In this document: piece after piece, positions 7,834 through 63,145 of the stretch | How the letters are laid out: each line of letters opens with the position of its first letter | Numbering within the stretch: the stretch's first letter is position 1 | Source of the DNA: Anaeramoeba flamelloides | Taxonomy: Eukaryota; Metamonada; Anaeramoebidae | Direction of reading: 5' to 3' | Length of the DNA stretch: 64,000 nucleotides | Assembly: GCA_027625915.1 (NCBI GenBank) | Contig: JANTQA010000012.1 | Span: 14,842,501-14,906,500 of the forward strand | The notes under the pieces: generated by a model | The model's database searches: none | What the model was told of the DNA's origin: nothing | The model's input: only the letters and a program-made list of their open reading frames with translations | Position numbers and translations under genes: made by a program

Positions 7834-7851
7834 AAACTATTTATCTGTTAT

Positions 7852-24777: not shown

Positions 24778-24980
24778 TACAGTCAGTTTCAAATTTAAGA
24801 CACAAACTTTCAACTAAATTTAAGGCACAATAAAAAAATCAAATTAAGGTACAAAATTCAAATTCTAGTAAAAATAAATTGTAAAAAAAATAAAATTCCA
24901 AATTTTGTTTCTTAATTTGAGATTTTTTTGTGCCTTAAATTTTGTTGATAGTTTGTGCCTTAAAAGTGAAACTGACTGTA
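24778..24980. mobile_element. Palindromic MITE, copy 6
   Basis: Same family. TACAGTCAGTTTCAA at the left, GTGAAACTGACTGTA at the right. Forward centre (TTCTAGTAAAAATAAATTG). Confidence 0.9.
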
Positions 24981-25911: not shown

Positions 25912-26110
25912 TACAGTCAGTTTCACTTTTAAGACACAAACTTTTAACGAAATTTAAGTCACAAAAATATCTCCAATTAAGGCACAAAATTTGGAATTAT
26001 TTTTTTACAATTTATTTTTACTAGAATTTGTATTTTGTGCTTTAATTTGAGATTTTTTTGTGCCTTAAATTTCGTTAAAAGTTTGTATTTTAAAAGTGAA
26101 ACTTACTGTA
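25912..26110. mobile_element. Palindromic MITE, copy 7 (inverted centre)
   Basis: Same family. TACAGTCAGTTTCAC at the left, GTGAAACTTACTGTA at the right. The centre is reversed (ACAATTTATTTTTACTAGAA). Confidence 0.9.
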
Positions 26111-26881
26111 ATAAAAACTTATTTTTTTGTCTCATAAGTATTGAATAGGATGTTGACTATTTAATTTGATGTCTAAAATTTATGGATTGACATCATAATA
26201 TCAACTATTTTTATAAAAAACCTCATTTGACACAAGTTGATTACACTATCAATACAAGACCTTTTTATTGTTATACTCAAAAGTTAATACCTGTATAAGT
26301 CAATTTCTTGTAATCAGAAGCTGAGTTCCAACACCATTTCTCCTTTTCAATAGTAACACATTAAATTAAAATCACATCTCTGATTATTTTTGTTCGACTT
26401 TTTAAGAAAAAACAAAAAAAACTATAAAAAAAATTCTTTTTTGATATATGAAAAAAGAGTAAATAGAAAAATAATAAAAGTTGTACTATTAATATATTAT
26501 ATTAACCTTTGAATTAAATATAAATCATTCAAAATATTTTCAACAAAGAAAATACATTAATTGCACAAAACAAAAATAGATCAATTTAATTAATCATTTT
26601 TTTTTAACGATAAAATTTGTATGATAAATTTAAATAAATTAAAAAAACATTAAATTAAAAAGTATTTTGATTATTTATTTGTCAAAAAAAAAAAATAAAA
26701 ATGTATATCTAAAATGTCATTTTTTCAATGTAATGAAAATCAAACTCAAAATTAAAATATAAAAAAAAAAATTTAAAAATAAAAATAATTTTCTAAAATA
26801 TTAAGGTTCTTATCCGAAATAAAAATTTTTTTCAAGAAAATAAAAGTATTGTTTTTAAATTGTATAGTCTTTAATTTAAAT

Positions 26882-29800: not shown

Positions 29801-31129
29801 ATAATTGTCATTGATGTGGATTTTTTTTTGAACTAGTCTGATCGAATCCAAAAGATAATAATTTTTGGGAAGGTTATTCTTTTTTGTTGGCTTTTTCTTT
29901 TTGTTGCCAATTGATATATCCTTTTTTTTAATATCACCTAGCGACAAAGATCTTCGTTGTTCAGAATTTTCAAGCTGCTTGTTATCTACTTGGTCATTTT
30001 TATTTGTTCTGTTATTGTTTTTCTTTCTATTTGATTTGCTGTTGTTTTCGTTTTTATTTACATTTCTATTTTTGGTTGTATTTTCATTTTCATTTTGAAT
30101 TTCATTTCTGGTTTCATTTTTATTTTCATTTGTATTTCCATTTCCATTTCCATTTTCATTTTCATTTTCATTTTGGATTTGATTATTAGCAGGTGGCCAC
30201 CTAGAAAGCACTCCATTTTTTTTCTTTGTGTTGTCAAGGGTTTTTTTTCCAGATCGATATTGGTTTTGTTTTTGTTTTTGTTTGTAATTTAAATTTCGAT
30301 TTGGGCTTGTGTTTGCAGATTTATTCAAGGCCTTAGTGTATGTTTGTGGTTTTAAAAAGGTCTTTGTTGATGTTTTATTTTTTGTTTTTGAATTTATAAT
30401 TGGACTTGTATTGCTACTGTTGTTCCTATTTAGATTTGAATTGTATTTTTTTACAAGGCTGTACGTTTTTCCGATTGGCTGATAAGATTTTTTGTTTCGG
30501 ATATTTGAAGATTTATTTGTGCTAGAAATATTTGGAGAAGTGTCTATGTTTCTTCCTGTTGTTTTTATTGGTATTGGTGCTTTTTTTGCATTTTCCCATT
30601 TTTTTCCTTTCTTTTTCCATGAAGAACCAGAAGAGAGATGGGTTGTTGGCAATAAATTGTTTCGGCTAAAATTCTGTGTGTTTCTTGTTCTGTTGATTAT
30701 TGATCGTTTTTGTAAGCTTAAACTAGGGTTTTTTGGTTCAACCAATTTTGATTTGTACGTGTTTTGTTTTGTGTTCTTTGTATTTATATAACGAGTGTTT
30801 GGACTTATTTTTTTGTTCCCATACGCTGAGGAATATTTCGGGCTCTTACTTGGTGTGACATTTTTGGTGGTTTGAGTTCTTTTTGTTGATGTGGTTGATC
30901 TTTGAAATTGGTAATTACTATTATACCGATTATAAGGATAATTTTTGTTTGTTGTTTTTGTTGTTTGAGCTGTCTTTGATTTGTTTGTGGTATAATTAGA
31001 TCTCGAATACGGTTGTGGTGAGAGCGATTGGTATTTACGAGTTTGTTTGTTTGGTGTTTTTACATAAGAATTCGTTTTGTTTGTTGGTGGATTCTCAAAC
31101 TTTCTTATTCTGTTTTTGATATCGGTCAT
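26882..31129 (-). CDS. Multi-SH3 scaffold protein (six near-identical SH3 domains plus one divergent)
   Basis: The protein has 1415 aa, starting MTDIKNRIRKFENPP. Residues 1-~440 are disordered, Lys/Asn/Thr/Ser-rich, and a short conserved-looking patch (YYLLDSIRLVQKKIH) follows. From ~560 to ~1245 there are six tandem units. Each consists of a linker rich in E/N/K, an RxxVKFDEL-type lead-in, EDDFLYDHQDDPKG, and an SH3 domain with hallmark residues: AICDYT (ALYDY equivalent), ELSFKKGE, ESGWWQGE and GIFRSNLI. A seventh, weakly conserved SH3-like unit (ARLKQDYTDPINIDF) occupies ~1300-1390. The six cores are nearly identical even at DNA level, so they are recent duplicates or are kept alike by gene conversion. 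SH3 domains bind proline-rich peptides, so a clustering scaffold in the cytoskeleton or signalling is inferred. Family and partners are unknown. Intronless. Confidence 0.93.
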   Translation of the reverse strand: MTDIKNRIRKFENPPTNKTNSYVKTPNKQTRKYQSLSPQPYSRSNYTTNKSKTAQTTKTTNKNYPYNRYNSNYQFQRSTTSTKRTQTTKNVTPSKSPKYSSAYGNKKISPNTRYINTKNTKQNTYKSKLVEPKNPSLSLQKRSIINRTRNTQNFSRNNLLPTTHLSSGSSWKKKGKKWENAKKAPIPIKTTGRNIDTSPNISSTNKSSNIRNKKSYQPIGKTYSLVKKYNSNLNRNNSSNTSPIINSKTKNKTSTKTFLKPQTYTKALNKSANTSPNRNLNYKQKQKQNQYRSGKKTLDNTKKKNGVLSRWPPANNQIQNENENENGNGNGNTNENKNETRNEIQNENENTTKNRNVNKNENNSKSNRKKNNNRTNKNDQVDNKQLENSEQRRSLSLGDIKKKDISIGNKKKKPTKKNNLPKNYYLLDSIRLVQKKIHINDNYFENLKIDNSSNGNDAVIDLLQDSLKENRRRRKTTNKVRSRIKFGITSRIKSKKKMNNTDNKNKDENEITDQTTNTKSKINTKTKVNTQTSTSKSTSTSTNTNTQSNSKPKKQRVSVKVDELDLQTQEEDDFLYDHQDDPKGIAICDYTATKESELSFKKGETIFIIGQAESGWWQGETRTGIGIFRSNLIKKENEKENENNNENQTKVENKNVKENNPNQNSNKKPKRQRITVKFDELDLQTQDEDDFLYDHQDDPKGIAICDYTSKKESELSFKKGETIFIIGQAESGWWQGETRTGIGIFRANLIKMVDENEKENENKIKNKNEKKNNISTQNLNPNTNLSTNPNKKTKRKRISVKFDDFELLPQDEDDFLYDHQDDPKGIAICDYTSKKESELSFKKGETIFIIGQAESGWWQGETRTGIGIFRSDLIKMEGENAKEKEYEDENEKKNEKSNQNEKVNNLNQNQNPKTNPNQKRKRITVKFDDFELLPQDEDDFLYDHQDDPKGIAICDYTSKKESELSFKKGETIFIIGQAESGWWQGETRTGIGIFRADLIKMEGDNAKEKENENNNENQTKVENQNEKKNNISTQNSNSNTNKTKRQRITVKFDDFELLPQDEDDFLYDHQDDPKGIAICDYTSKKESELSFKKGETIFIIGQAESGWWQGETRTGIGIFRANLIKMVDENENEKENENNNENQNEKKNQNEKENNPNQNSNKKPKRQRESIKFDEIDFQPEDEDDFLYDHQDDPKGIAICDYTSKKESELSFKKGETIFIIGQTESGWWQGETRTGIGIFRADLIKMVDENENVGQFNDISAINFNVKTATTTTTTTTNEFNDNQNKMDVSQKTQFQYGSNIKVQELKSVQENKEIGKTKKKVRVSVEVDEIDLNRPDEHEGDQKARLKQDYTDPINIDFKFAKNEIIYVFGEMGDKKVQIEKKNGENGTIPISIIEFIDDDENVITNPFESKFL
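27395..29470 (-). repeat. Six coding tandem repeats of ~350-375 bp (SH3 units)
   Basis: Units end (plus-strand left edge of the TTTTATCAAAT phrase) near 27395, 27757, 28130, 28503, 28878 and 29229. Each has a ~200-bp SH3 core that is nearly identical between copies and a more variable E/N/K-linker of changing length. Core differences are mostly single silent changes such as CCTGTT versus CCGGTT. Confidence 0.9.
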
Positions 31130-31791
31130 TATTGTGGGTGGAAATAATAATAAAAAAAAAATTGTTTTTTAATTCTGTTTTTTGGATTCAGCTTTTTTTT
31201 TGTATTCCTTCAATTATGTAATAACCAAAACAAAATTTTTTATTGTTTTTCCTGAGGGATCAAAAGAGTTCAAAAAGGATTAAAAAAAGAAAAAGACAAA
31301 AATGTTTTTCCTTCATAATTTTGAAAACAGCAGACTTTACTTCAAAAAAAATCCCTTAATTCGTTTTTCAAAGAGACAGTTATAATTTTTTAATGACCAA
31401 AATGCTATTTTTGGAAATTATTTTTGAATTTTCAAAGAGACTCTTTTTTTCAAATTCCTAAAAAAAAATTTAATCGATTAATTTTTTGTGTAATTGATCC
31501 CTGAAGCAATTGTTCAGGGTTTTTGGTTTGTGGGCAGATTTAATCGTGTTTTATTGTTTTATATAGTTAAAAACAGTTTATATTTTTTAATTTTAAGGAC
31601 TAACTTCCCACCCTGAAGGTTGTTTAGTTGTTGTATTATTTTACACTCACTTCTCACAAAGAATTTAAATTTAATAGAAACTGGACATAAAAATAACAAC
31701 TAACCCAAAGTTAAAAAAATCCAAACAAAAAAAAAACTTGCAAATACTGTAGTCAAAATAAAGTGTGCAAAAAAATTTAATGTGTGTTTCG
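31130..31791. other. 5' flank of the multi-SH3 gene
   Basis: AT-rich; no gene seen. Confidence 0.4.
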
Positions 31792-32171
31792 AAATAAAAA
31801 GTGTGTTTTTTTGTTATAGATGTCCGATATATTAACAAATCAAATAAACTGAACAATAAAACATAAAAAATATGGGATTAGTTACTTAAAGTTCTATTAT
31901 TTAAAATAAATTCTAAAAATGAAGGATCGAATGTAGAAAATTTTTCTTAAAAAATAGAGTAAATTTTTCCTAAAATTTTAATCTTCAAAAATATAAAAAA
32001 ATTTAAAAAAATTGAGAATATAAGGAAAATTTTCAACTATTTACATTAATAATTTAAAATTTTACTGAAAATAACCAGAACTTTACTTTTAAAATTGATT
32101 TGAACTTAGGTAGATTATTTGGTTGTGAATTGGATGTTGTCTTGGTACAAGAAGAAAAAAAGCACAGATAA
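31792..32171 (+). repeat. Dispersed repeat, copy 2 (partner at 3404)
   Basis: Diverged direct repeat of 3404-3800. It ends exactly where the TAAACTA-ended element at 32172 begins, so that element may have inserted at or within the repeat edge. Confidence 0.6.
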
Positions 32172-32682
32172 TAAACTAAATTTCATAATAAATGGCCCAC
32201 CTTACATTTGAATCATGAATTTCTTTTGTATCATTTTGAAGTTTTTCCTCTCACAATGAAAAGTTTGCAAATAAATCATTTTTTCTCTTTTTTATTTTTT
32301 CAACAGTGTTTTGTTAAAATGGAAAATGAAAAATTTGAAAGAAGTAACAGATGAATTAATGCAAAAGTTGGTTTCAAATATGAAAAAGAGATTAGATTTA
32401 GTTATTCAAATCGAAGGAGAATCGATAAATAGGTTTTTTTAATTTTTTAAATTTTCTATTTTTCATGTAATGCTTCATTCAAAATAAATGGCCCAATTTT
32501 TTTTAACAGTTTTTTTTTATTTTTCTTTCTTTTATTTTTAGATAAAAAATAAATATCTCTTGAGTATATTATTGAATATTAAAATCTAAATTTTTATATT
32601 ATAATAGATAACTTCAATTATTAAAAATATTTTTCTTTAAAATTTGATTTTTAATGGGCCAATTATTATGAAAGATAGTTTA
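32172..32682. mobile_element. ~511-bp element with TAAACTA termini, copy 1
   Basis: Ends are inverted repeats of about 28 bp: TAAACTAAATTTCATAATAA at the left, and TTATTATGAAAGATAGTTTA at the right. Both continue into GGCCCA. A second, oppositely oriented copy is at 45240-45757. Only a short non-conserved reading frame is inside. Target duplication is unclear because the flanks are AT-rich. Non-autonomous, superfamily unknown. Confidence 0.8.
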
Positions 32683-34194
32683 TTATAAAACACAGATTAT
32701 AGTCTCTGTGCACGCATTATTTTGATCAATGTAGATATTTGAATGTAGATTTAAAAAAAAATAACTTAAAGTGATTTTCATGTACCAGTACATAATTTAA
32801 AGCATTTCAAATTTGTAAAGTTAACTCTTAAAAATATTCAGAGTTATTGAAGAAATTATTTTGTGTTTAAAGATTTGAAATGGAAATATAAAATTGTAAA
32901 ATCAAATTTTGGTAGTGTCACTTATAGAAGAGTTAAAATAGCAAAAATTGTTGGAATTGTGAAAAGGTCCCATTTTTCTGTTAAAGAAATTCCTAGTGGA
33001 TAAATTTAACTGGGTTTAAGGAATTCATTTCAAAAGGTTTTTATTGAAATTAAAATTTTCAACGGAAAAATTTCACAAGTTTTTACAAGTAATTTGTGAA
33101 TTAATGAAATAATTTTTCATAAAAAAGATAAAGGGTTGAAAATGAAAAATATTTATTCTATTCTAAATTATTAAAAAAATCTATTAAACTTTTTTTTTTT
33201 CAGCTTTTGTGAAAAAAATATTTTTAAGAGAACTAACAAAGCAAAATGAGAGGAACTTGAAAATAAATGATTAAATTTTATTTGAATTGCTAATACAATA
33301 TATATTTAAACACCAAATTTAAAGAAAGTTATTTAACCAGGTATTTCCAAAAAAAGTTATTTTTTTTTAAATATAGAAAAAAAGAACTTTATTGAAGGCT
33401 GTATTTGTATAATTGATTGCATTAAATTAAGTGAAACATTAAAATTAAATTAATCAAAATATTGGGTTTATTTAGATAGCTTTTGTCAAAATATTTCGAT
33501 AAATAATGAAAAAAAAAAAAACAGTTGTATGAGGAAAGGGTTGAAATAAAATTTCATAAAAAATGGTAATATAGTAATAATACAAAGGATTTTTTTTTCA
33601 AAAAAATACAATTAAGTTATGATTTTTTTCTATTCTATAAGAAAATTTACCAAGATTAAAGCTATGAGGAAATATTTTTTTATTATAAAAAAAAAAAAAA
33701 AAAAAAAAAACTATGAAATCGTCAATTTTCATCTATAAAAAAGTCATATCAAATCGAGATGAGAAACTTTGGTATCTTTTTATTAAATTATAGTTTTTAA
33801 ATAACCAAATTTAATAGTTTTTAAGGACAGTGATATAATTATTATTAATTTTTAATATTCAAACAGTTATATTAGGATTTTATTCAATAAAAATAATATA
33901 ATACCCCCCCTCCCTCTTTCTCTCTCTTTTTGAGCTTATTCTTACCAAAAAATAAAAATCAAAATAAATAATTTATAAAATACCATTAAGAAAATTTCTT
34001 CTGTACATTAATTTAAGAAAGTCTTTGTAATAGGATGGATTATTATTTATTCATTCATAGTTTTTTTACGATAATTTTCACAAATTATAAGTGAGTCTAT
34101 CATTAATTTTATAAAATCTTAAAACAGTTGAAGCTAGATATTTTTATTTTTTCGCAAACATAAATCAATCAATTCTTATTTTTTTGTGAAAAAT
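32683..34194. other. AT-rich spacer
   Basis: No gene seen. Holds an A run of ~24 at 33687-33710 and a short pyrimidine tract with C7 at about 33903-33928. Confidence 0.4.
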
Positions 34195-41210: not shown

Positions 41211-42431
41211 TTTATTTCAATATTTTAGTAAACTTAAAAAAAGAAGTTTCATTTTTTTTTTTTTGATCATCTCAAAATTACCATAACCAATCTAAAAATA
41301 AAAAGCTTTTCCATGCTGTGTTTTGAATTTTTATTACCAAACAGTTAAGAATAAATTAAAATCTAAATTTGACTCAATTTTTTACAATTTATTTTTCATT
41401 TCCACAGATTCTCTCTAATTTGTAGACTATTATGTTTTTTAATTATATTTTTGATAATAATTCCCCATTTCAGTCAATTAACAACAAAAAAAATTATAAT
41501 TAACAATATTTCATTCTGAACAAACTATTGGAATATACCTAAAAAAAAAAAAAAGAGGAGTATCAATGATATTGCAACACCAATGGTATTAAATTAAAAA
41601 AAAAAAAAAAATCACGAACAATATCATTTGTAAAATAGTAATAGTTAATCAATATAATCTTATTTTTTTTTGTATTAAAATTACCAACCCAACTTGTTGA
41701 AAAAAGTAACCAATAATAAAAAAAACCACTAATGATAAATTTTTTAAATAAAAAAATTGACTTAAAGTTCAAATTATTAAAAAGAAATTTTGAAATAGAT
41801 TGGATTTACTGTATTTGTTTTCTATCTTATACCAATTTGATAAATCAATTGCTATATTAATATAAACCAGTTTTGCGTGAAATGGGACACTATTTAATTA
41901 GAGAAATTGAACATATTCTATATTTTTAATTCATTATTCTTCTGAAACGAAAATTTCAATTTTCAGTTCAGATCATTTATTCTTATTGAGTTCATTTTTT
42001 TTTTTTTTTTTTTTACTTATTGTTTTTTTTTTCTTTTTTTTTTAGTTTTTTTTTTAGAATTAAATTTGAAAAAAAATAAAAATGTTTAAAAATTCCAAAT
42101 TAACTTTAAGTTAATCTAGACTTTGTAATTCTTTTTATAATCAATATATTTTCTCTTGAAAAATCTTATTTTCAACAATTTTAATTTTCTAAGGAAATTT
42201 AGTAATTTTCTATGCAATGTTCCAATAATATTTGTACAATTTTTTTAACATTTTATTTTTTTCAAAAAAATTGGAATTTTTTATAGTATTTCTTTTATGA
42301 ATTTGTAAAAATATATTTTAAAATTTAGCATTTTTCTTGATTCTAAAAGAATCCTATTTTTATTGAAACTTAGAAAAAAAATTGAATTTTTTATTTTTAG
42401 CTTGTGAAATTTTGTCGAAATGGAGTTTGTA
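41211..42431. other. AT-rich spacer
   Basis: No gene supported. Contains T-runs around 41997-42055. The 69-aa minus frame at 41563-41772 has no domain. Confidence 0.4.
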
Positions 42432-42630
42432 TACAGTCAGTTCTACTTTCAAGATACAAACTTTCAAGGAATTTAAGGTACAAAAAAATCTCAAATTAAA
42501 GTAACTTTTTTGTAATTTTTTTTTACACAAATTATTTTACTCGAATCTAAATTTTGTACCTTAATTTGATTTTTTTTTTAGGTTTCTTAAATGTGACTGA
42601 AGGTTTGTGTCTTAAAAGTGGAATGGGCTA
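42432..42630. mobile_element. Palindromic MITE, copy 8 (decayed)
   Basis: Same family. TACAGTCAGTTCTAC at the left; right end decayed (GTGGAATGGGCTATA). The centre is reversed (ATTATTTTACTCGAATC). The most diverged full-length copy. Confidence 0.8.
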
Positions 42631-43007: not shown

Positions 43008-43208
43008 TAAAGTCAGTTTCACTTTTAAGACACAAACTTTCAACAAAATTTAAGGCACAATAAAAATCTCAAAGTAAGGCACAAAATTCAAATTCTAGGA
43101 AAAATAAATTGTAGAAAAAATAATTCCAAATTTTGTACCTTAATTTGAGATTTTTTTGTGCCTTAAATTTTGTTGAAAGTTTGTGTCTTAAAAGTGAAAC
43201 TGACTGTA
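43008..43208. mobile_element. Palindromic MITE, copy 9
   Basis: Same family. The left terminus reads TAAAGTCAGTTTCAC (one base changed from TACAGT), right GTGAAACTGACTGTA. Forward centre. Confidence 0.88.
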
Positions 43209-43328
43209 ATTAATCCAACCACAAACAGAAATTTTTAATTATACGATGATAATGAACATTGAATTCCATGAGCTGGAAATGTCGTTATGTTTTCTTGAGG
43301 TTTCTTTTTATTTGTGAAGTGTTCTAGG

Positions 43329-45174: not shown

Positions 45175-45239
45175 AAGATCTTTGGGTAGATCCTTATTAT
45201 TAATTTTCAAATTCGAGAACTTTTCAAATTATTTTAATA
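44276..45239. other. AT-rich spacer with (GA)n and (TA)n
   Basis: No gene seen. (GA)n at 44764-44785 and (TA)n at 45132-45170. Confidence 0.45.
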
Positions 45240-45757
45240 TAAACTATCTTTCATAATAATTGGCCCATTAAAAATCAAATTTTAAATAAAAATATTTTTA
45301 ATAATTGAAGTTATCTATGATAATATAAAAATTTAGATTTTAATATTCAATAATATACTCAAGAGATATTTATTTTTTGTCTAAAAATCAAAGAAAGAAA
45401 GAAAAAAAAAAACTGTTAAAAAAAAATTGGGACATTTATTTTGAATGAAGCATTATATGAAAAATAGACAATTTAAATAAGTAAAAAAACCCATTTATCG
45501 ATTCTCCTTTAATTTGAATAACTAAATATAATCTCTTTTTCATATTTGAAACCAAATTGTGCATTAATTAATCTGTTACTTCTTTCAAATTTTTCATTTT
45601 CATTTTCCATTTTAACAAAACACTGTTGAAAAAATAAAAAAGAGAAAAAATGATTTATTTGCAAACTTTTCATTGTGCGAGGAAAAACTTCAAAACGATA
45701 CAAAAGCAATTCATTATTCAAATGTAAGATGGGCCATTTATTATGAAATTTAGTTTA
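45240..45757. mobile_element. ~518-bp element with TAAACTA termini, copy 2 (inverted relative to copy 1)
   Basis: Reverse-complement homologue of 32172-32682. Left end TAAACTATCTTTCATAATAA, right end TTTATTATGAAATTTAGTTTA. On the minus strand a short frame reads MENENEKFERSNRLINAQF; in copy 1 the same frame is interrupted, so it is not a conserved gene. It might be a captured exon fragment. Confidence 0.8.
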
Positions 45758-47276
45758 TTTTAAAGTATTTAATTTGAATAAAGATTTAATACTGGTAGAA
45801 TATTGATACCAAGTTGTATATTTTCAATATTATCAAATAGAATCTTACAATTCCAAAATATCATATTTTTAAAAAAAATTATTAAAAATTGAAATCAAAA
45901 TAATAAGTAATCTTTTATAATCAGAAAAGAATAATTATAATTATTTCAAGGTTTTTTTAAAATTCCCAAAATAATTAATTTTGAAGATTGGAAAAGTAAT
46001 AAAAACTAGATTTTCTTGATTTTGGTATTCAGATATATTTTGTAACATTATAGAGTTAAAATTTGGTAAATTTTTTTAAAAAAGTTTTAAATAAATCTAA
46101 AAATAGTTTAAAAGTTCTAAAAAGATTAATAATTAAATTTAAGAGAATTCAAAAGAATTATCCAGAAAATATATGAGGTTATTCTGTAAAATACATGTAA
46201 AAGTGGTTTATTTTTTTTATAAATTATAAACCAGTTACTAAAAACTTTTTAGAAAGGTAAAAAAAAAAAAAAAAGTAATTAAAAAAAAAATATGTTTAAA
46301 AATATTAAAATTATGATTAACAAATAAAATGAAATTATATTTTTTTAAAGGAATGAAATAAATAAAGTTTTATAAAAGAAATAACATGGAACCCCAAAAT
46401 TTTTTTTTCTAAAACAAGAATGTTGAAAAAAAAATAATTATTATTTTAATTTTTTTTTTTTGAGATCTCTAGAATATTTGGTTTTGGAGAATATTTAACG
46501 TTGAAATTTTAATAAAATAATAACAAAACAGTATTTAAATAAAATCTGAAAATATTAAAGGAAGTATCATATCTCAAAAAAATAATCTCTGAAAAAAATT
46601 CATTAAATTTCTCAAAATTTAATTATTTATATTAATCTAATTTTCTATGAAATTTTAATTTTAAACCAATATAAATTTAAAGTTTTATCAATTTTTATTC
46701 TTTTTAAAAATTTTTAGAGAATCTTGAACTTGAGAAAATCAATACAAATTATAATAAACTATCATATATTTCAATTCCGGGGGTTGTTATGATGTTTCTA
46801 CCCCCCTTAACATAGATACAATAATGAAATAAAAAAAAAGCAAATAATTACCCTTTTTGTTTAAAATATAAACAGAAGAAAATTATAGAAAATTTTGATC
46901 ATTTTCAATGGATCTGTCCTTCCTAGGAGAATAATAGGTTAATATTTCTAAACAAATTTACTTTAATTAAAACTTCTTAAAATAATTTTAAACTGTGATA
47001 GTTTAAAATGATTTTCGTTAAATGATGATCGAAAAATCAAAAATTTTCTGATCATTATATAACCGTGAAAGAAAATTTAAGTCTAAGTACATTTAGAGTG
47101 GAAATTACACTTTTTTCTATCATCAAAAATAAAAAATATTTTTTTTTACAAAAATTTTGTCTTTCATACTTTCTTTGTATAAATTTTCAAATGACTTTTC
47201 ACTCGATCAAAAAGTGATATCATAATATTTTCAGTTTTTTAACTAAATTTGTGATTTATCCAAAAATTATCAAACC
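45758..47276. other. AT-rich spacer
   Basis: No gene or recognised repeat. Confidence 0.4.
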
Positions 47277-50793: not shown

Positions 50794-52344
50794 TGCATAT
50801 CAAAATTGTTATTTATTATTTATTCTGTGACTTTGTTATTTGGTTCTATTTTTTGTCTGTTGGTACCTTTATAAATTATGTGAACATGAATAATGTTGTT
50901 TCTTATATTTCCAAAAGGTAGTTGGTATTCAAAATATTTTAGCATTTTTTGATTGGAAATATTAGTTATTTTAGTAGAAATACTTAGATTTGCAATAATA
51001 TATTACTTAATATAATAGGAATATTATTTTTTTTTTTCAATGAAACTAAAAATAATCTTATTAAAGTACCAAGATTTTTAATTTAGTATTTTTGAATTAG
51101 GATGGATACTATATTAACAATCGAAAAGATATAAAATAAATTATTCTGTTTATTTGTAATTAATTTTAAGAAATAAAACTTAACATAAAATAAGAATTAA
51201 AAAAAAAACAATACAAGCCAAATAAATATAAACTAAAATTCATAATTTTTAACACCTTTAAAACGGAATAAAGAATCACAATACACAATTTCATTCAAAT
51301 TGGAAATAATTTTCAATTGTATAAAATATGAAAATCATTTATTCTTCTTTTATTTTTTGCTTTCATTTCATTTTTTGAATTACGTGACTTGTTTCGTTTG
51401 ATCACAATATTTTTTTTGAAACAATTGAAATTAAGTTAAAGCCAAGTTGTTCCAAATAGAAGAACTCAAATAAAATTAGTTTGTAGTATCTAACCATTTG
51501 ATCGATCAATATTTCTTATTTAGAATGTAAACAAATTTACAAATGCATTTTTTGGTTATAGTCTCTCTCCAAAATTTTCAACACACACCAATATTTTATT
51601 AGTATTGATAATTATTTATTTTTTGTTTTATGAGTAATGTGATCTATAGAAAAAGTGTTTACATTTCAATTAGTGAATGGTTCTAATTTGGTATTTCTTC
51701 TTGAATTAATTAAAAAAGTTTTTTTTTCACAAATTGATTTTTGAAAAATTTTGAATTAATGTTTATATAAATATATAAAAACTTTGTTTCAGTACAAAGT
51801 ATATAAGCGTAATAATATTTTCAAATATAAATTCTTTTTTATCTTTGACCGTTGAATATAAAACAAATATAAAATAGAATAATCCCCACCCTAGAATAGT
51901 TGATATCTGTCTAAAGTAAAAATAATAAATCTAAATTTTCTTAAAAATAGTAAATCTCAAATTCTTAGCTACACATTGAGAAAAATAACAATGCTTTTTT
52001 TGATCTGGAATTGAAGATCCAAATAAAATTCCAATAGAAATCCATATAATTTCTAGGCAATGATTTTTACTTTTTCAGTAACATTAGAATAACACTTTTA
52101 AAAGAAGTGACTAAAGATCGTGTTCGAAAATAAAAACCAAAAAATAAAAAAAAAAAAGTTGCGAAAAAAAGATTAAAATTTTTATTTTTCCAAAATTGAT
52201 TTTCTCTTCGAATATCTCTTTAAACTTGGATAATTAACTCACTAAAACTGGTAAATTTTAACTGTAACACGATTTAAATATTTGAAAGACTCAAAATATA
52301 AATTAATAAACATAAATTTTGACTTTTTAAAATCTAAAATACTT
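50794..52344. other. AT-rich spacer
   Basis: No gene seen. 51885-52120 is weakly similar to 23150-23400. Confidence 0.4.
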
Positions 52345-52990
52345 TTCATAAATTGTGGATCACCTTCAATAATTAATTGAAATTAGAATCTATACTCTTT
52401 AGTATTCAATAACAATTGATAACTAAAATCTGATTAATAATTCAGTTTTAAATCACTCTAAATCTACAGAAACCTGATATTTTACAAAAATTAAAAAAAT
52501 TAAAACCAAAAACAAAAAAAAAAATGAATGTAATTTTTGAAAACTAGTATTATAAATTTTTTATTACTAAACTTTCACTGAAAGGAGTTTAACAAGCTGA
52601 TTTTTGGCTAATAATTGAATTGATTTTAAAAGAAATTACATCGTCGAAATTTCCAAGTGATAATTTTATCTTTTCAAAGATTTTTTTTTTCTCGACATGA
52701 TCTTTTCTTAAAAAAAAAGTATCAAAAAAAAAAAGATAAAAAACTAAAAAAAAAACGAAATTGAAGATATTTCAATCAAAAAAACAAAAAGAAAAATAAA
52801 AAGAAAAAACAAAAAAATTACAAAAATACAAAAAAGCAAAATAAAAAGTTACAAAATTAGAAAAAATGATTCTGATCCAAAAAATTAAAAATAATTTTTT
52901 TGTAAGAATAGCAAATAAACCCTCATAAAAACTTCTATTAACATTATAAAGTAAATCAAAATTTTTGAAAAATGGTTTATTTAAAAAACT
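52345..52990 (+). repeat. Dispersed repeat, copy 2 (partners at 18690, 62545)
   Basis: Shares TTTAGTATTCAATAACAATTGATAACTAAA, TTTTTTATTACTAAACTTTCACTGAAA, a CATGATCTTTT phrase followed by an A-rich run, and AATTAGAAAAAATGATTCTGATCC with 62545-63145. Non-coding. Confidence 0.65.
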
Positions 52991-53756
52991 TAAAAGGTAA
53001 AAGATATAAAATTAAAACTAAGTTAGCTCCAATAAATTGACATTGGGGTTATTTTCTGAATTCTTTTTTGACTATGATGGGACTTTCCATTTCATAACAG
53101 TCTCCAAAATGGAAAAATATTTAACTGTTCTCGAAAAAAAGTGAAACATGGTTTTTCATTGGGAATAATAATAGAACCTGAAAAAGAAAAGTAAAATCAA
53201 TAAAAAGAAAAAACCAATTAACTTCAAATAATAATCCATAATATTATTTCCAACCAAACCAACTTTTATAAATTTTAAATCTACTTTCTTATCGAAATTG
53301 TTGGTGTGGTTTTAGAGAGATCTCAAAAATAGTCAATTTGTTGAACAAATTAATCGATCAAATCAAAGAAAAATCCCTTCAAAAGATAGTATTAAAAAAA
53401 AATTTTATTGTTTTGAGTCCTCCATTTTGCCTTTGATTATTTATTTTATCTTTTATTAATACATCTTATTTTTTATTTTCAGTAAAGCCACCAAATACAA
53501 ATAATTTTGAAACTTTTTTTTCTTTTTTCATTTTTTTTCCAGAACAGTAATTTTCAAAAATTTGTGCAAAAAAATTGAGAGATAATAAGAAATAATAGAA
53601 AATTACAAGTTATTGAAAATTTAAGGAAGAAATAATTTATTGTTTGAAATGTTTCTGAAACAGATGATGCAAGTATAATATAAATGAAAAAATAATAAGG
53701 ATATCAATTGATGAAAGAAAAATATTTTATTAATATTGAGTGAATGTGTTTGAGAT
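52991..53756. other. 3' flank of the oxidoreductase gene
   Basis: AT-rich; 53310-53560 resembles 38330-38610. No gene seen. Confidence 0.4.
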
Positions 53757-56700
53757 CTACCAATAACTGAAAACTTGTTCCTTGGGGAGATTCATTTGAA
53801 TTTTAAGTATTTTTGTCATTGCATTTGTAAATCCTTTTGGCCCACACATTACAATTTGTGGATCTAATTCTAAATCAATATGTTTTTCAATAATTTCTTT
53901 TGAGATATAACCTTCGCCACCATCCCAATTTTCGCCAGGTTTTTCCAATGCATAAGTGTATGTAAATTGTTCCGGACTATTCTCTTGATACGATTTAATT
54001 TCATCAAAGAGAACAAGTTCATTTTCCGAAATATTTCCATGTAGAAATACAATTTTTGTTTTATCTTTAGAGTTTTTCATAATGCTTCTGGCTAATTGAA
54101 TCATTGGTGAGAGACCAACACCTATTTTATACAAAATTTTTTTTCAAAAAAAAAAAAAAAAACAGTGAATATTATATTATTTAATAATTCAAGATGAAAT
54201 ATACAACAAAAAAGTGGCTTAATAATAGTTCCAGAATTTTTTTGATTTATTAAAAAAAAAATCAGAAAAAATCAAAAATAAAACAAAAAACTAAGAAAAG
54301 AAAAAGAAAAAGAGAATATAAAATATGCCAATTTTTTGTTAAATTATTTTAATTTAAGTGGTTAGGGTATACTACTGAGAAGTCTAAAATTAAAATATAT
54401 TGTTATTGAAAGTAAATCATATTAGTGATCCATGGTTCAAATATCTCTAAAAATTCTCTGAGCAAAATAGCACTAAAATTTATATCTTCAATTTAAAAAT
54501 GATTTGATATTCGTAAAAAATTAAACAATTTTTGAAAATAAATCTGAATTTTGATACACATTGAATGTTCAGTCACTAATATGAAGACTTAAAAGTTGAA
54601 AAATATCTTTTTTAAAGTTGTCTCAAATTTTCGATTAGTTGGTAAAAAATTATCAAGGATACAAATAGATATTATTTTTACAATTATTTTCTACATATTG
54701 GAAATATATTGAAAATATAACTAAACCCCGTTTTCACTCATAGGTTTCCCATCCAAAAATAAAATATTCATTTTCTTTTTTTAAGAATCAACTTATATAA
54801 GATTAATTAGAAATAAGAGAAATAATAATCTTTATATTTGAGTTGAATATTCATCAATGAAAAACCTGAGCAAACTAAACTATATTTCAAAACTTTTGAC
54901 TCACTTTATATTGTTATTGGAAGTTTTTTTGAGGCTTTTTCCAATATTCTTACCAAAAAATTATTTTCAAATTTTTGAATCTTGATCATTTTTTCTAATT
55001 TTTCAAATTTTTGTATTTCTTTTGTTTTTCTTTTTCTTTTTTTTTCGATTTCTTTTTTTATATTTTTTAGAGACTTTTTTTTTTCATTACTTTTTTTTTT
55101 TTTTTTTTCAAAATTCAAGCTGAAAAAAAAACTCTTGGAAAGACAAATAACCACTAAGAAAATTGAGACTATGTAATGTATTTTAAAACGAATTTAATTA
55201 TTAACCAAAAAATCTTGTTGTTAAACTTTTTTTAGTGAAAGTTCAGTAATAAAAAATCGGTAATACGCTTTACAAAAATTGTGTAACACTTTTTTTGAGG
55301 TTTTTGGTTTTATTAAAATATCAGGATTTTATGTGTTTGAAATCATTTAAAAGTGAATTACAAATCAGATTTAATTTTATTTGTTGTTTTTGAATAATAA
55401 TTTTTTTTTTTTTTTTTTCAATTTATTATTTCAGGTGATTCACAATTTTTGAAATGGATTTTATAAATTTTCAAATATAATAAAATTTAAAAAAAAATTG
55501 GTTACATACGGGAAAATTATTAAATTTCAAATTTGGTCAAATTCACATTTTTTTCTAAAAAGTTAATTCCGTTGAAATATATTGACTGTAGGTATTTAAA
55601 AACATCTTTACGGGTAGGTTAAGGTATATTAGGGTAGGTTAGAGTATGATAGAGTGGGTTTTTGGTGTTTGAATGGTATACTAGAAAATTTTGGGAAGGA
55701 TTTTGAAAAAAAAATTATTAACTGACCAATTAGACTTTTGAAACTTGTTTTAAGGGAGAAATTTATTTACACTTAACTTTGGTGATTAAAATTGGATTTC
55801 GAACAAATTTTTAAAAATATTTATTATTGATGATTTCAAAATTTTGGATTTTCTACAATTTAGTAATAAAATACTACCAATCGCAAAATAATCGTTTTGC
55901 TTTTTCCTCCCACAACTATAAAAAAACATTAAAAACTTTCATACCAATGATAATAATCAAGAAACTCTTCAAAAATATGAAAAATTTCAAATTGACCAAT
56001 TTTGAAATTTGACCAAATTTGAAATCTAATAATATACCCTTACATACCAATATAACTTCACATGCAATATTTCTTAATTTCTTTAGAAAATTGTAATTAT
56101 TTGTAATAATATTTTTTAATAGTAAGTATTCATTTTAAAAAAAATTACATTGCCTCAATTTCCTTTAAATTAATTTGGATTTTCAAATATTTTTTTTTTA
56201 AATTGACTTGTTAAAAATAAAGAAAAAGAAAAAAAAAAAAATTTGATAAAAAATTTTTAGAAAAATGATTTTGGAAATCAAAAATGCAAAATTAGAAAAA
56301 ATGGTTCTGATCGAAATATTGAAAATATTATTTGATAAAAATATGGGACAAACCAAACAAAACCACTTCCAATCAACAATATAAAGTGAGTCAAAAGTTT
56401 TGAAATATAGTTTAGTTTGCTCAGGTTTTTCATTGATGAATATTCAACTCAAATATAAAGATTATTATTTCTCTTATTTCTAATTAATCTTATATAAGTT
56501 GATTCTTAAAAAAAGAAAATGAATATTTTATTTTTGGATGGGAAACCTATGAGTGAAAACGGGGTTTAGTTATATTTTCAATATATTTCCAATATGTAGA
56601 AAATAATTGTAAAAATAATATGACTTAGAATCCGGGGATAATGTACTCTTTACCCAACTCTTAAAATCGATTCATAATGAAAAAAAAAAGCAATATTTAG

Positions 56701-59589
56701 TAGAGCCAAGTTGTTTGTTTAAATGATTGGTAGTGAAGATCAAGTTAATAGAACCAGAAAGAAGGTAAAGATAAAAAATGTTTTCATTGATCAAGTTTAC
56801 CACTCACTACAAAAATAAAATTTTATTCACCATTTCTCATTTTATTTTTTTTTAGACTTATATTTCGCTTTAGTACAGAGAGGGTTGTACACACCCAATG
56901 ATAAACTAAAACGTTAGTGCTCTCACTTTTCAAGAACTGTAAATGTAACCTAAAATTTCATAATCCATTTTTAGAAAAATAAAAGTCCTCTAATCAACCT
57001 GAAATACCTAAAGTATTTCAACTTCAAGACTCATTATTTCTTCATTGTCATCTAAAAAGAACCAATAGATACCTTTTACTTCTTGAATTGTTTTATTTAT
57101 TGCTAAAACAATAGCTTATTTTAGTACATTATCACCTGACTCAAATCACATTTTAAGAATTTTTTAAAATTTTTTTTGTTAATTTTCAAAAACAAGTCCC
57201 ATTCCATTCATCCCTCATCTAATGATAAAACTTTTGTTTTGAAACTGATTAGCTTGAAATTTTTTTTACGAGAAAAAAATTACACATTACAAAGTTGGTA
57301 TTTTTGAAAAAAATATGTTTGAAAAACGTAAAGCACTTCATTTAAAAATTGAAGGATTGCTTTATTGAACAAAATACCCAAAAGAAAAAAAAAAATAAAA
57401 TAGTACTGACATTGTAACGTAACTGTCAAATCTAAAACCCGGAAATTTCTGAAACCCGGAAATTTCTGAAACCCGGTAATTCCATTTTTCTGATCAATTG
57501 TAAATATTAGTAAAATGTCAAAAATATACTCCCATTTTACAGACAAATAACCCAATTACCCAGCAACTTATAACCGTTTCAATTGGGGTATTGGTTAAAT
57601 ATTCTGAATCCATCATTTTTAACTCTTTGGTGAATTCAGAAATCAAAAAAATCCAAAATTTGTAAAATTAATTGAGAACATTACTGAAAATTGAAAATCA
57701 AATTTATTGCGATTTTCCCTTTAGATAAATTCTAAATTTATTAGGAATCATCTTTATAAGAATTATTTTGTTATTGCATTTATGAAATAAGAGTTTTATT
57801 TACTTCATATCTTTCTTTTAATAATTTTTTCAAAATTTTAAATTTCTATTGGGAACCTTAGAGGATTTATTTTTTTACAAAATGGTTTTCATAATTTCAT
57901 GAAAATTTACAATAATCAAACACCTCTCTCAAATTCAAATTCTCTAAAAATATTTAAAAATATGAAAATGTTTTTTATTTCAAAATTTAAAATCAAAAGT
58001 GGATTTTCAATTTTCAGTCATGTTCTCAATTAATTTTACAAATTTTGGATTTTTTTGATTTCTGAATTCACCAAAGAGTTAAAAATGATGGATTCATATA
58101 TTTAACCAATACCCCAATTGAAACGGTTATAAGTTGCTGGGTAATTGGGTTATTTGTCTGTAAAATGGGAGTATATTTTTGACATTTTACTAATATTTAC
58201 AATTGATCAGAAAAATGGAATTACCGGGTTTCAGAAATTTCCGGGTTTCAGAAATTTCCGGGTTTTAGATTTGACAGTAAGACATATATATTTGTAAACT
58301 CTATAATTTTTTTCAAAAATATAATTTTTTACCAACTAATCTAAATTTTAAGACAACTTTAAGAAAGATATTTTTCAACTTTTAATTTATCAGAAGATTG
58401 GTGACTGAACATTTAAATTTGTGGCGAAATACAGATTTTTTTAATTGAATTCTTGGGGTTTTTTGCCAATACAAAGTTTCATTTTTGAATTGATGAGATA
58501 AACTTTTGGTACTATTTTACTCAGAGAATTTTTAGAGATATTTGAACCATGGATCACGAATGTGTTTTACCTTCAATAGTAGCGTACTTTTATTTTGGAC
58601 TTTTACATGGTAGACACTTATCCATTAAATACTAGAATAATATTATATTGGTTTCTATTTTTGGATTTTGAAACAGTAATTAAAAAATAATTTCAAAAAT
58701 GAAAATTTTTAATTATGATCTTTAGGGGGAAATCCTTAATAATTTATTTGTTCAATAATATTTAATATAGATTTTTTAAAAGTCATTTGAACCATCGAGC
58801 ACTTATTTGATTTACTTTCGATTAAATCATACTTTAATGAATAGACGAATCTATGGTGAAAGATAACCCCTTAAAAAGTAAAATCCTACAGATCAACAAA
58901 TTTTTTTTATTTTTTGTTGAAGGGATTTAGGTTTTGTGTTAAACAAAACTATTTCAGGGTTTGTTTGTGAACGAATAAAAAAAAAGTTAACCCTTATTTG
59001 AGAACTTTCAGTAAAAAAAGTTTGAAAAGCTTTCAAAAAATGTAAAAGAAAGGTTTTTTCGATAATTGAGAAAAAAAAATTTTTAAAAAAAAACAGACAA
59101 GGGATTAAAAGTAAATTGTTTTGTTTAAAAAGAAGAAAAAAACAAACCTGCAGAAAGAAGCACCATCTGTTTAAAATTGCCAGGTTTATAAATAAACCCA
59201 TCAACAGGTCCCATCATTTTAATTTTCTCGCCAATTTCCATCTTGCTTAAATAACCTGACATACCTGTAGATTCTAAATTAACCTTGACTAAGATCTCAA
59301 CAAAGCCATGATCTGAAGGTGTTGATGTAGGGGAGTAGAACCTTTTGACAATTTTATTGTTTATCTTTGCTTGTATGGCAATGTACTGGCCAGAAAAAGA
59401 TCCTAGTTGATCTGTTTCCTGAGGAAAAGAAAACCTAAAGGTGTAAATTGGACAACCAGATTTGGTGGAAGATACCTTTTCCTTCTTTGCAAGAGTAACG
59501 AGCGTCCACTCGTTTGGGTGTAGTGCAGACTTGTGTTTTATTCCTTCTAAATCTGTGAATGTTTCTATTCTTTCTGTAATTTTGTTCAT
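53757..59589 (-). CDS. Cytochrome-b5-reductase-like FAD/NAD(P)H oxidoreductase, two exons with a 5-kb intron
   Basis: Exon 1 is 59148-59589 and exon 2 is 53757-54121 (minus). They join in phase 1 (TCTGCAG|GTTTGT ... AAATAG|GTGTTGGT) to restore LLSAGVGLSPMIQLAR, the GxGxxP nucleotide-binding loop. The product has 268 aa. The FAD-domain motif RFYSPTSTP (family RxYSPxS), GMSGYLSKMEIGE and GPVDGFIYKPG are in exon 1. The NAD(P)H side has LLSAGVGLSP, FLHGNISENELVLFDE, MCGPKGF (CGP motif) and the end VFSYW. The family moves electrons from NAD(P)H to cytochrome b5 or similar acceptors. No membrane anchor or targeting signal is seen at the N-terminus, so a soluble form is likely. The acceptor protein cannot be named. 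Splicing across ~5 kb is inferred from the exact motif join. Confidence 0.9.
54379..54652. repeat. Outer inverted repeat, left arm (with 58320-58605)
   Basis: Reads GTGATCCATGGTTCAAATAT and AGTTGGTAAAAAATTAT; the reverse complement of both is found at 58320-58605. The arms are diverged, so they are older than the elements between them. Confidence 0.75.
54669..56621. mobile_element. Young 1.95-kb foldback element with 247-bp identical arms
   Basis: Arms 54669-54915 and 56375-56621 read as exact reverse complements over 247 bp (terminal ATATTATTTTTACAATTATT). The interior holds an inverted copy of the dispersed repeat of 18690/52345/62545 (at 55205-55470) and a smaller inner inverted pair (~55499-55555 / 55990-56050, sharing AATTTCAAATTTGGTCAAAT). 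It also has a G-rich tandem (GGGTAGGTTA, 55601-55665). No transposase. Fragments of the same family lie at 13738 and 50268. Confidence 0.85.
55205..55470 (-). repeat. Dispersed repeat inside the foldback (inverted copy)
   Basis: Reverse complement of the 62551-62780 sequence: AGTGAAAGTTCAGTAATAAAAAAT at one end and AATTTATTATTTCAGGTGATT at the other. Confidence 0.65.
57422..58278. mobile_element. ~860-bp palindromic element with CCCGG-rich ends
   Basis: Arms of ~278 bp (57422-57699, 58002-58278) are near-perfect reverse complements around a ~300-bp AT-rich centre. The outer ends carry ACTGTCAAATCTAAAACCCGG followed by a 16-17-bp tandem (AAACCCGGAAATTTCTG twice, then AAACCCGGTAATTCC). CCCGG tracts are rare elsewhere in the window. 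No frame of note; a target duplication is not clear. Confidence 0.85.
58320..58605. repeat. Outer inverted repeat, right arm (with 54379-54652)
   Basis: Holds ATTTGAACCATGGATCAC. A shorter, further-diverged direct copy of that piece (ATTTGAACCATCGAGCAC) follows at ~58786-58850. Confidence 0.75.
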
Positions 59590-61551
59590 TGAAGTGTTTG
59601 TTCTGAATTATAAGATAAATTGAAGATGAAAAAAATGGGTTTCCTTTATTTCGAAAAACATATTGTGTTGGAAATCATACTGTTATTGTATTTTTTCACT
59701 TTTTCGTTTTGTTAGAAATATAGGTTAATCATTCAATAAAAATTTTTCAATAAGAAAATAATTATCAAATCTTTTTGCGAAAAAAATTATATTTTGAATA
59801 AGACAGACTCTGATACAAATGATAATTTAAATAACACTGTAACATTGGTTGGTGGATTTAGAGTTATAAATAGTTTTTAACTTGATTGATCTTCAACATT
59901 TCAAACTAAAATGATAATTTTTCAAAAATTTTCAAAAGGGGAATTACTTTTTTTCTCTTTCAGAAGTTCAAAGAATCTTTTAAATAAAATTAAAACAAAA
60001 GAATAAATAAAATTGCATGGGGAGGAACATGAAATTTTCACAAAAAGTAATTTTAAATAGGATAAAAAATCATTTAATTTTGAAAGAAAAAATGTATTAT
60101 TTTTTAAATATACTTTTTGGTGTAAGGGGTTAAATTGCATTTGTTGCAATTTTTTTTGTATTGAAGAAATCTTGATAAAGTGAAAGATTTATATCTAAAG
60201 TTTGGTTTATTTATCCTCTTTGGTAGAAATTTCGGACCAAAACAATAAAATAAATAAAGATCCTGTCTTTGTTTTTTTGTTTTGGTAATATTTTTACAAA
60301 CCAAATTGACAGTTAAAAGATCTCTCTTTTTTACAACAACAGGAAAAAATTTTAATATGTGGTTTTGGTGATATTCACACTTACAAATATTGAATAGATC
60401 AGAAGTGTCAAAAAAGTTTTCTCTACAAATAAACCAAGAAAAGAAAATTTTTTCATTAGATCACATTTTTTTTTCCATTTGTTCGGAAAAAGAAAACTAT
60501 TAAATTCATTTTATTTCTTCACAATATAAAATTTTTTGAACACTTCCATTATTTCTTTCATATTTTTAACATTATAAATACTGAAAATTCAAAAAAAAAA
60601 AGAGGAATAAATTTTTACTGTGAAATAAAAAAAATTAAACAGTAAAAAAAAATTCAATAAATTATCTTAATTGGGATAATTATTTTAGAATTCAAAATTA
60701 AATCCATTTATAAAGAAATAAAAAAAGAAATTAAAATAAACAAAATGGAGGATTTAGCTAAACAAAATAACTTATAATGCTACCTATTATTAAAGATTTT
60801 TATTTGATTGATCAATTATTTTTAATTTGTTGAAAAAATCAACTATTTTTGAGATCTCCAATACAACATGAATAATTTCGATATGAAAGTAGATTTAAAG
60901 TCTGTTTGTTGGTTTGATTGACTATTATGAAATGGATTAATCTTTCAAATCAATTTATTTTATTCTTTTAATTGGTTTTTCTTTTAGTTTTATTAAGTTT
61001 ACTAATTAAAAATCTTTTTGGGCTTTTTTTTAAAAAAAAGAGTTAGCCCAATTAAACTTTTTGTAAATCTAAGAACTCTAAACTTTGACAAGAATTTTTT
61101 TTTAAGAATATTTTCAAGATCAAATTATTTGAAAAACGTTTCTTTGTATTTAAATCAACAAAATACATTTTTTAAAATAAGGTAAAAAAATTTTTAATAA
61201 TCAAAAAGCAAGCAAAAAATAGTGAAATATTTATTTGAATTTAACAAAATTGTTGAAAGAAAAATAAATTTAAAAAATTTTCAACTATTTTTTTTTAAAA
61301 AAAATCTATTTTAGAGTGCATAAATCAATAAAGTTACCTTTAAAAAAGTGTAAAATCATAATAACATACCAATGTAAAGTTAAAAAGATTTTTTAGTTTT
61401 ACATTTATTTTTTTAAACATAAGTATTTACAAAATTGAAGGGAAATATCACACAATTTATTATTCTATAAAATAGTCTGTTAATTATCAAATATCGGTAT
61501 TCAGATTGTTTTTCTCTTTTAAGATCATTCTTTTGGTTAAACAAAAAAAAA
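59590..61551. other. 5' flank of the oxidoreductase gene and AT-rich spacer
   Basis: No gene supported. The minus frame at 60104-60304 begins with TTG, not ATG, and has no domain. Confidence 0.4.
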
Positions 61552-61703
61552 TACAGTCAGTTCCGCTTTTAAGGCACAAACTTCAACAAAAATTCAGGCA
61601 CAATAAAAATCTCAAATTAAGGTAAGAAATCCAGAATTCTGGTAAAATAATTTGTGTAAAAAAAAATTCCAAATTTTGTGCCTTAAAAGTGGAACTGGCG
61701 GTA
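61552..61703. mobile_element. Palindromic MITE, copy 10 (internally shortened)
   Basis: Same family. TACAGTCAGTTCCGC at the left, GTGGAACTGGCGGTA at the right. About 50 bp of the right arm is missing, leaving 152 bp. Confidence 0.82.
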
Positions 61704-62544
61704 GAAGAGAATTAGAAAAGTTTATTCTCATTTTTTGAATCTCCAATATTAATGAAATTTATTCTCATTCTTTTCGTTATCTTGCATTGTAAAATAAAAA
61801 AATCAAAATTTTCATTAAGTTTTTTATAAATAATCACACCTCAATAATTTTAACAAATATTAAAAGTCATTATTGTTAAAGGTAGATTAATAATTTAAAC
61901 TGATTTGGGAATTAAAAAATTGAAATTTCCAATAATTGAAAAACCCTTTTTAATCTAAAGTTAAATCAAATTTTTGTTTAATTTATTTTACACCAAATCG
62001 TAAGCTTCTTTTTGGAATTAAAAAAGTAAAATGTTACATGATTTTATAAATCTTTTTTTTTTGGAAAGCTGAATGAAAATATTTTTCCATTTATTTTGCA
62101 AACAATATTAATAATAAAATGGATTAATATTTGATTTTAATTTGTTTCTTTTTTATTTTTATTTAAGATTTTATTTTTAGTAAGTTTTCCAATTAATTAT
62201 GCTTTTGAACTTTTTTCACCCTAGATAAGTTAAATTGATTTCTTTGATGATTCTAGGAAGTTAAAAAAACAACTAAACTAAAAATATTTTTTCAAATTTA
62301 TCCCTTCAACCTGTGCTTATTGTTAATTAGACAAAAAAAGGAACAATATTTTTTTATAATATTCCAAAAATTAGCAGAGATTTTATGAAACATCTAAATA
62401 CCTAATTTGATGGGAAATAACCAAAATATTATTCATTGGCGATCTGTATATTGAAAAATTACTTTGATCAAAAAAATCATTTTATGCAAGAAGAATCAAA
62501 ATTTTGTTCCATTTAGTTTTCAACAAATAAACTCTTTTTCAAAA
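61704..62544. other. AT-rich spacer
   Basis: No gene or clear repeat. Confidence 0.4.
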
Positions 62545-63145
62545 ATTGTAACTCACTTGAAATAATAAATTGAAAAAAAAAATTATCCTTTAGTATTCAA
62601 GAACAATTAATAACTAAATATGATTTTCAATTCGCTTTTAAGTCATTTTAAATCTATAAAAGCCTGATATATTAAAAATTACAAAAAATAAAACCAAAAA
62701 TTAAAAAACAGTGAGTCACAATTTTTGAAAAGAGCATTACAGATTTTTTATTACTGAACTTTCACTGAAAAAAAGTTCAACAATAAGATTTTTTATGAAT
62801 AATTAAATCCATTTTCATAAACATTACATATGTCACAATTTTCAGAGTGATTATTTGTCTTTTCGAAGATTTCTTTTTTTTTTCCACATGATCTTTTACA
62901 AAAAAAAGAAAAAAGAAAAACAAAAAAAAAAAAAAAAAAAAAAAAAAAGAAAAAGAAAAACAAAATAAAAACAAAAATTTGAAAAAGCAAAACAAAAATT
63001 TGCAAAATTAGAAAAAATGATTCTGATCCAAAAATTTGAAAAAATTTTTTGTAAAGAATACTGTGATAAACCCTCAAAACAACTCCCATTAACATTATAA
63101 AGTGAGTCAAAATTTATGAAAAATGGTTTAGTTTTTCTTGATCTT
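62545..63145 (+). repeat. Dispersed repeat, copy 3 (partners at 18690, 52345, inverted 55205)
   Basis: The longest copy. It has TTTAGTATTCAAGAACAATTAATAACTAAA, TATTACTGAACTTTCACTGAAA, CACATGATCTTTT, a ~70-bp A-rich run, and ATTATAAAGTGAGTCAAAA, which also occurs in the arms of the 54669 foldback. A (TA)n run follows at 63167-63192. Non-coding; the hydrophobic minus frames here are poly-Phe artefacts. Confidence 0.65.

Follow-up and report, generated by a model that had tools for sequence, protein, structure and literature searches.

The 5,026-nt intron of an FAD/NAD oxidoreductase gene in Anaeramoeba flamelloides is very probably an older and shorter intron that was enlarged by nested, non-coding transposons with terminal inverted repeats (TIRs), the long inverted arms within it being a by-product of this growth. 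The gene is located in a window of 64,000 nt, by which we mean the whole stretch of DNA that was analyzed (C13:14842501-14906500 of a 254-Mb genome in 76 contigs, with a GC content of mostly about 20-25%). The coordinates of the individual features are summarized in Table 1.

The oxidoreductase gene is encoded on the minus strand and consists of two coding exons with a product of 268 amino acids, the two halves of which matched the Pfam domains FAD_binding_6 (E 2.5e-18) and NAD_binding_1 (E 9.3e-23). A first-pass annotation of the window had proposed that the exons join in frame over 5,026 nt, and this was confirmed, with GT-AG splice sites and an intron in phase 1. Exon 1 ends with CTTTCTGCAG and is followed by GTTTGT at the donor junction, while AAAATAG precedes GTGTTGG, the start of exon 2, at the acceptor junction. 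No open reading frame of at least 100 amino acids was found wholly within the intron (54122-59147). A search of both strands of the intron for recursive splice sites gave no match to two stricter AG/GT patterns and one match per strand to the loosest pattern. From the intact gene and its GT-AG sites we infer that the 5-kb intron is removed through ordinary GT-AG splicing. The whole gene is flanked by inverted repeats at 53181-53538 and 60627-60991 (71%). Elsewhere in the window, at 26882-31168, a reading frame of 1,428 amino acids contains about six near-identical repeats that by eye resemble SH3 domains.

As a comparison for intron length, we used the ribosomal protein L4 family, for which eight genomic matches were obtained (17 of 17 candidates scored). 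The 16 introns from these eight paralogs measured only about 121-227 nt, and the 5-kb intron is thus unusual against this sample, which covers 2.4 kb per locus of a single gene family, with boundaries assigned from GT and AG by simple rules. The presence of eight L4 matches (L076-L083) within one genome, each with the same two short introns, is an observation in its own right.

Table 1. Features of the oxidoreductase gene and its intron, in window coordinates.
Feature	Coordinates	Strand	Basis
Exon 1 (coding part), FAD/NAD oxidoreductase	59148..59589	-	exon join and Pfam match
GT-AG intron, phase 1, exactly 5,026 nt	54122..59147	-	exon join
Exon 2, stop codon included	53757..54121	-	exon join and Pfam match
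Putative ancestral intron remnant at the donor, aligning in part with paralog C70	58877..59147	-	paralog alignment
Putative ancestral intron remnant at the acceptor, aligning in part with paralog C70	54122..54352	-	paralog alignment
famA copy 1, outer TIR element bounded by TTAA	54354..58874	+	family alignment
Left outer arm, 5' half of famA copy 1	54352..54653	+	repeat alignment
Right outer arm, 5' half of famA copy 2 (reverse)	58288..58628	-	repeat alignment
Inner inverted tract, left copy; contains repeat X (54724-54871)	54671..54914	+	inverted-repeat alignment
Inner inverted tract, right copy	56376..56619	-	inverted-repeat alignment
Dispersed repeat famC	54872..55475	+	genome search
Dispersed element of ~520 nt, short terminal inverted repeats, loop of inner palindrome	55507..56042	+	copy alignment
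Dispersed element of ~800 nt (56618-57422 and 58278-58287), within famA copy 2	56618..58287	+	copy alignment, joined flanks
Foldback (near-palindromic) element of 855 nt, ~284-nt arms, TSD TAA	57423..58277	.	self-alignment, family, empty sites

Dispersed repeats make up about 4,408 of the 5,026 nt of the intron (about 88%), with boundaries set in this analysis; the names famA, famC and repeat X are likewise labels that we coined here. Genome searches returned 12,386 candidates for the whole intron, 7,784 for 54657-56633, 4,383 for 54724-55193, 1,307 for repeat X and 134 for 56634-57421, with 40 candidates scored for each query. The intron contains two inner inverted repeats, the inner inverted tract and the foldback element, that are stronger than the outer arms and absent from the first-pass annotation.

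The foldback element is bounded by near-perfect terminal inverted repeats of ~284 nt, the ends of which are typically C[AT]GTCAAATC, with variants. It is located 10 nt from the end of the ~800-nt element, with TAA on each side. Of 28 family copies analyzed, three could not be parsed, and identical TNA triplets were observed on both sides in 24 of the 25 parsed copies (12 TAA, 9 TTA, 2 TCA and 1 TGA), the single mismatch being TAA/TTA. The terminal inverted repeats and the 3-bp TNA duplication would make this family a foldback element or MITE of PIF/Harbinger-like type. When joined, the flanks of the foldback element matched empty copies of its ~800-nt host element in five of five cases. The best-scored foldback copies were 95-97% identical to the copy in the window (40 scored), and hence the insertion looks recent. 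The ~800-nt element, which is itself split by the foldback element, has ends that are visible in copy L026 and in four other copies. Its joined flanks restored a collinear famA sequence in three aligned copies, out of seven offered, three of which had the anchor motif. On these alignments, both flanks in each case show the foldback element to lie inside the ~800-nt element and the ~800-nt element inside famA copy 2.

The outer arms correspond to the inverted arms at 54379-54652 and 58320-58605 in the first-pass annotation, which were said to bracket ~3.7 kb and to be of transposon origin. Both statements agree with our results. The arms align as a single gapped match (54343-54653/58321-58641, 78.6%, E 2e-66) with a spacing of 3,667 nt, in which one block (54352-54481/58501-58630) is 79% complementary and another (54582-54653/58321-58392) is 90% complementary. 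The donor is 517 nt and the acceptor 230 nt away from the nearer arm, and the arms represent two members of the dispersed family famA. A B-box-like stretch, noted by eye, raised the possibility that the arms are tRNA-derived SINEs, which was rejected, the element being ~770 nt long with terminal inverted repeats of its own.

Extended alignment defined famA as a TIR family of ~770 nt. Among 30 loci, including both arms in the window, TTAA was present near the 5' end in 21, and in 10 a 3' end fitting the search pattern was detected, some of the others being truncated or off-pattern. famA may be a TTAA-duplicating MITE, piggyBac- or Kolobok-like, and piggyBac-type transposases are a possible source of its mobility. 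The genome contains 68 matches to the piggyBac transposase PF13843 (94 of 94 candidates scored), several of which are pieces of one place. Several of the matches have open frames, such as the one at C43:474719-475771.

Copy 1 of famA is delimited by TTAA at 54354-54357 and at 58871-58874. It consists of a 5' part (54354-54723) and a 3' part (about 58624-58874), with the intervening DNA added later; the copy yielded no sequence for family positions of about 405-515. Copy 2 stops at the TTAA of copy 1 at 58625-58628, where copy 1 resumes, and TTAA is present in the same stretch of other family members. In the other direction, copy 2 resumes at 56617-56567, and its far end was not identified in the intron. 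The insertion of famA copy 2 into copy 1 is therefore visible, in these alignments, at one end only.

In the inner part of the intron (54724-56566), repeats X and famC are arranged in mirror order in both halves, with a partial inverted copy of famC at about 56128-56418. The window holds further inverted partners of famC on either side of the gene (52325-52982 and 62527-63134). The inner inverted tract displayed zero mismatches in 200 aligned columns (54691-54890), and its flanks are about 60-92% alike. As far as the alignment can tell, such identity points to gene conversion between palindrome arms or to a recent inverted duplication. The mirror order of X and famC and the stretch of perfect identity go beyond simple insertion, and the inner tract is thus not fully explained.

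Genome searches with each arm were used to ask how special the pair is. With the left arm as the query, the best non-self match was the right arm (246 bits, 79%), followed by a copy at 222 bits and 77% (40 scored of 1,974 candidates). Taken alone, this result would favour the reading in the first-pass annotation that is weighed below. With the right arm as the query, the highest score was obtained for a copy on another contig (258 bits, 79%); the left arm came second (246 bits, 79%) and a third copy was close behind (244 bits, 77%; 40 scored of 2,159 candidates). The two queries together suggest that the arms resemble each other to about the same degree as the nearest other famA members. Thus, the outer arms were not upheld as a privileged pair, since the right arm is the best match of the left among the 40 scored, and not vice versa.

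Inverted matches of this strength are not what random sequence gives, and they are common in the window. Among 982 stretches of 5,026 nt outside the intron, which overlap in 50-nt steps and are not independent, in a window that is rich in repeats, 385 contained an inverted pair; the pair bracketed at least 1 kb in 122 of the stretches and at least 2.5 kb in 75. Other repeats were also observed in the window. A repeat of ~525 nt forms an inverted pair at 32170-32690 and 45232-45759, with 94% identity and 12.5 kb apart. Another of ~200 nt, the copies of which are mostly self-palindromic, is present about ten times (7848-8053, 8893-9098, 9442-9645, 10731-10941, 12363-12565, 24778-24983, 25909-26114, 42431-42623 and 43008-43210, with a part at 61549-61638).

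Paralogous genes served as natural controls. A protein search returned nine matches, of which two are the exons of this gene, six are exon pairs from three other genes and one is a weak and distant match (C57). All three paralogs are interrupted at this codon, in the same phase, by introns of 2,166 nt (C70), 770 nt (C33) and 735 nt (C41). The outer arms were absent from all three introns when these were aligned to the intron in the window. The closest relative is C70, the exons of which are 88-89% identical to those of this gene. Each end of the window intron has an alignable counterpart in the C70 intron (76% over 220 nt, 74% over 137 nt), in which neither the outer arms nor the inner tract nor the ~800-nt element found a match. 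At 29 nt from its donor, the C70 intron contains a foldback copy of its own, bordered by TAA duplications, at a position where the window intron represents the empty site. The middle of the C70 intron, about 940 nt, has nothing that matches in the window intron. The introns of C33 and C41 are 81% alike; with the window intron they have the position and the length class in common and, in sequence, one 27-nt match only. Since these two are unalignable and the middle of the C70 intron is unmatched, we can only infer the length of the ancestral spliceosomal intron, which was perhaps 0.5-0.8 kb and would have occupied the position common to the four paralogous oxidoreductase genes.

The reading frames are intact in all four paralogs, at 268 amino acids. 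The dN/dS ratio was 0.12 for the pair C13-C70 (dS 0.475) and ranged from 0.12 to 0.21 among the six pairs; these values are little informative on function after the youngest insertions, as the exon changes may mostly predate them.

We analyzed the potential for pairing with minimum-free-energy folds, which are unreliable for 5 kb of AT-rich RNA and ignore proteins and the co-transcriptional order. In the predicted fold of the whole intron, 252 of the 302 nt of the left arm were paired into the right arm, in agreement with the earlier suggestion that the arms can pair. Shuffling one or both arms cost 114-145 of 1,664 kcal/mol. It had also been suggested that this pairing shortens the distance between donor and acceptor, which was not borne out by the predictions: the graph distance was 27 for the intact intron, and the eight arm-shuffled folds (four with one arm shuffled and four with both) all gave the same value. 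Eight other stretches of equal length from the window, one of which overlaps the intron by 174 nt, gave graph distances of 8-27. When the pair span was limited to 4,300 nt, the distance was 59 with the arms and 34, 22, 64 and 31 without them. Limits of 2,500 and 1,000 nt, at which the outer arms are unable to pair, resulted in distances of 45 and 93, and the predicted folds of the sister introns gave 49, 13 and 20. Folded alone with short flanks, the foldback element had a predicted energy of -492 kcal/mol (z -43, 20 shuffles), which far exceeds the contribution of the outer arms. A short distance between the ends is general in most long RNAs, with G-poor sequences as the exception, according to the excerpted text of PMC6193969.

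These results bear on the reading in which base-pairing between the outer arms of the pre-mRNA would exclude a loop of ~3.7 kb, draw the two splice sites close to each other and provide a scaffold on which the gene tolerates large insertions. The extensive predicted pairing, its energy, the proximity of the arms to the splice sites and the result of the left-arm query are all as expected from such looping. Assistance of splicing by structure is moreover documented for the yeast RPS17B intron (PMC2536676, in excerpt), and large mammalian introns are the subject of a similar proposal (PMC2773006, in excerpt). However, the predicted distance is the same with and without intact arms, and under the 4,300-nt limit it is shorter in three of the four folds that lack them. 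The right arm has a better match on another contig, the paralogs have no such arms, and famC within the intron has inverted partners beyond the gene. The claim that the arms are a scaffold for the survival of the gene found no support, as they are members of a dispersed family and missing from the three paralogs; it is further weakened by the lack of a predicted gain in distance and by the many inverted pairs in the window. The arms can pair in the predicted fold, and nothing shows that the splice sites are drawn together or that the gene needs the arms. We thus found no evidence for looping at this intron and no proof against it, and consider the scaffold very unlikely. In RPS17B, as here, one complementary stretch follows the donor and the other precedes the acceptor. 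The difference is that mutants tie the pairing to splicing efficiency in yeast (PMC2536676, in excerpt), whereas the present case is known from sequence and folds and the sister introns are without the complementary stretches. Shepard, McCreary and Fedorov (2009; PMC2773006, in excerpt) likewise considered that intronic repeats in opposite orientation could pair into long-looped stems. Their proposal is statistical and concerns vertebrate introns of more than 50 kb, whereas here a single 5-kb intron has a predicted end distance that is independent of the arms. Among the papers listed on looping, long introns, transposon splicing, RNA end proximity, Anaeramoeba, and transposons and intron length, none concerned the locus itself.

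A somewhat less improbable, albeit still unlikely, reading is that the huge intron is poorly spliced and that this copy is becoming a pseudogene, kept only because the insertions are recent. The similarity of the foldback copies, suggestive of a recent insertion, and the three other paralogs, which could compensate, are consistent with such decay, while the full frame of 268 codons, the GT-AG splice sites and the dN/dS value against C70 argue against it. The history of the arms themselves allows a variant that is compatible with nested growth and that we regard as a tentative possibility, with the odds somewhat against it. According to this variant, the outer arms and the mirror blocks formed one famA-X-famC palindrome by inverted duplication, later opened by insertions. 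It would account for the mirror order of famA, X and famC on both sides and for the mismatch-free stretch at 54691-54890, given that X is at most 83% identical elsewhere (40 scored). Against it, the outer 300 nt are only 79% alike, the same as for the closest other copy, and famA copy 2 ends at TTAA within copy 1 in the manner of an insertion.

Growth by nested transposons remains our preferred explanation. Non-coding, MITE-like TIR transposons would have inserted into one another within the ancestral intron and produced the 5-kb intron in this copy of the gene. The inverted arms would represent two opposite members of famA, brought together via a second insertion or an inverted duplication. 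Strong local hairpins would compact the intron RNA regardless, and pairing of the outer arms would be incidental. Transposon-driven intron growth is a known kind of event; the looping idea dates from a paper of 2009. The intron shares with the MITE and foldback insertions behind intron length polymorphism in plants (PMC5422474 and PMC9519581, both in excerpt) the high-copy, non-coding TIR elements and a lengthened intron with an unharmed reading frame. It differs from the plant cases described there in that several elements are nested in one protist intron, and in that one sister intron has independently gained a foldback element from this family.

Introns of this AT-rich genome may tolerate near-palindromic transposons by virtue of local hairpins that form co-transcriptionally, with selection filtering the families that dwell in introns. 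We consider this quite unlikely; two sister introns each received a foldback insertion from one family independently, in one case 29 nt from the donor, which fits such tolerance and does not prove it. The locus provides a worked case of an intron that has grown six- to seven-fold, as compared to the shortest sister introns, with the gene intact. With four introns of 735, 770, 2166 and 5026 nt at one codon, RNA reads could measure the effects of intron length and of the arms on splicing.
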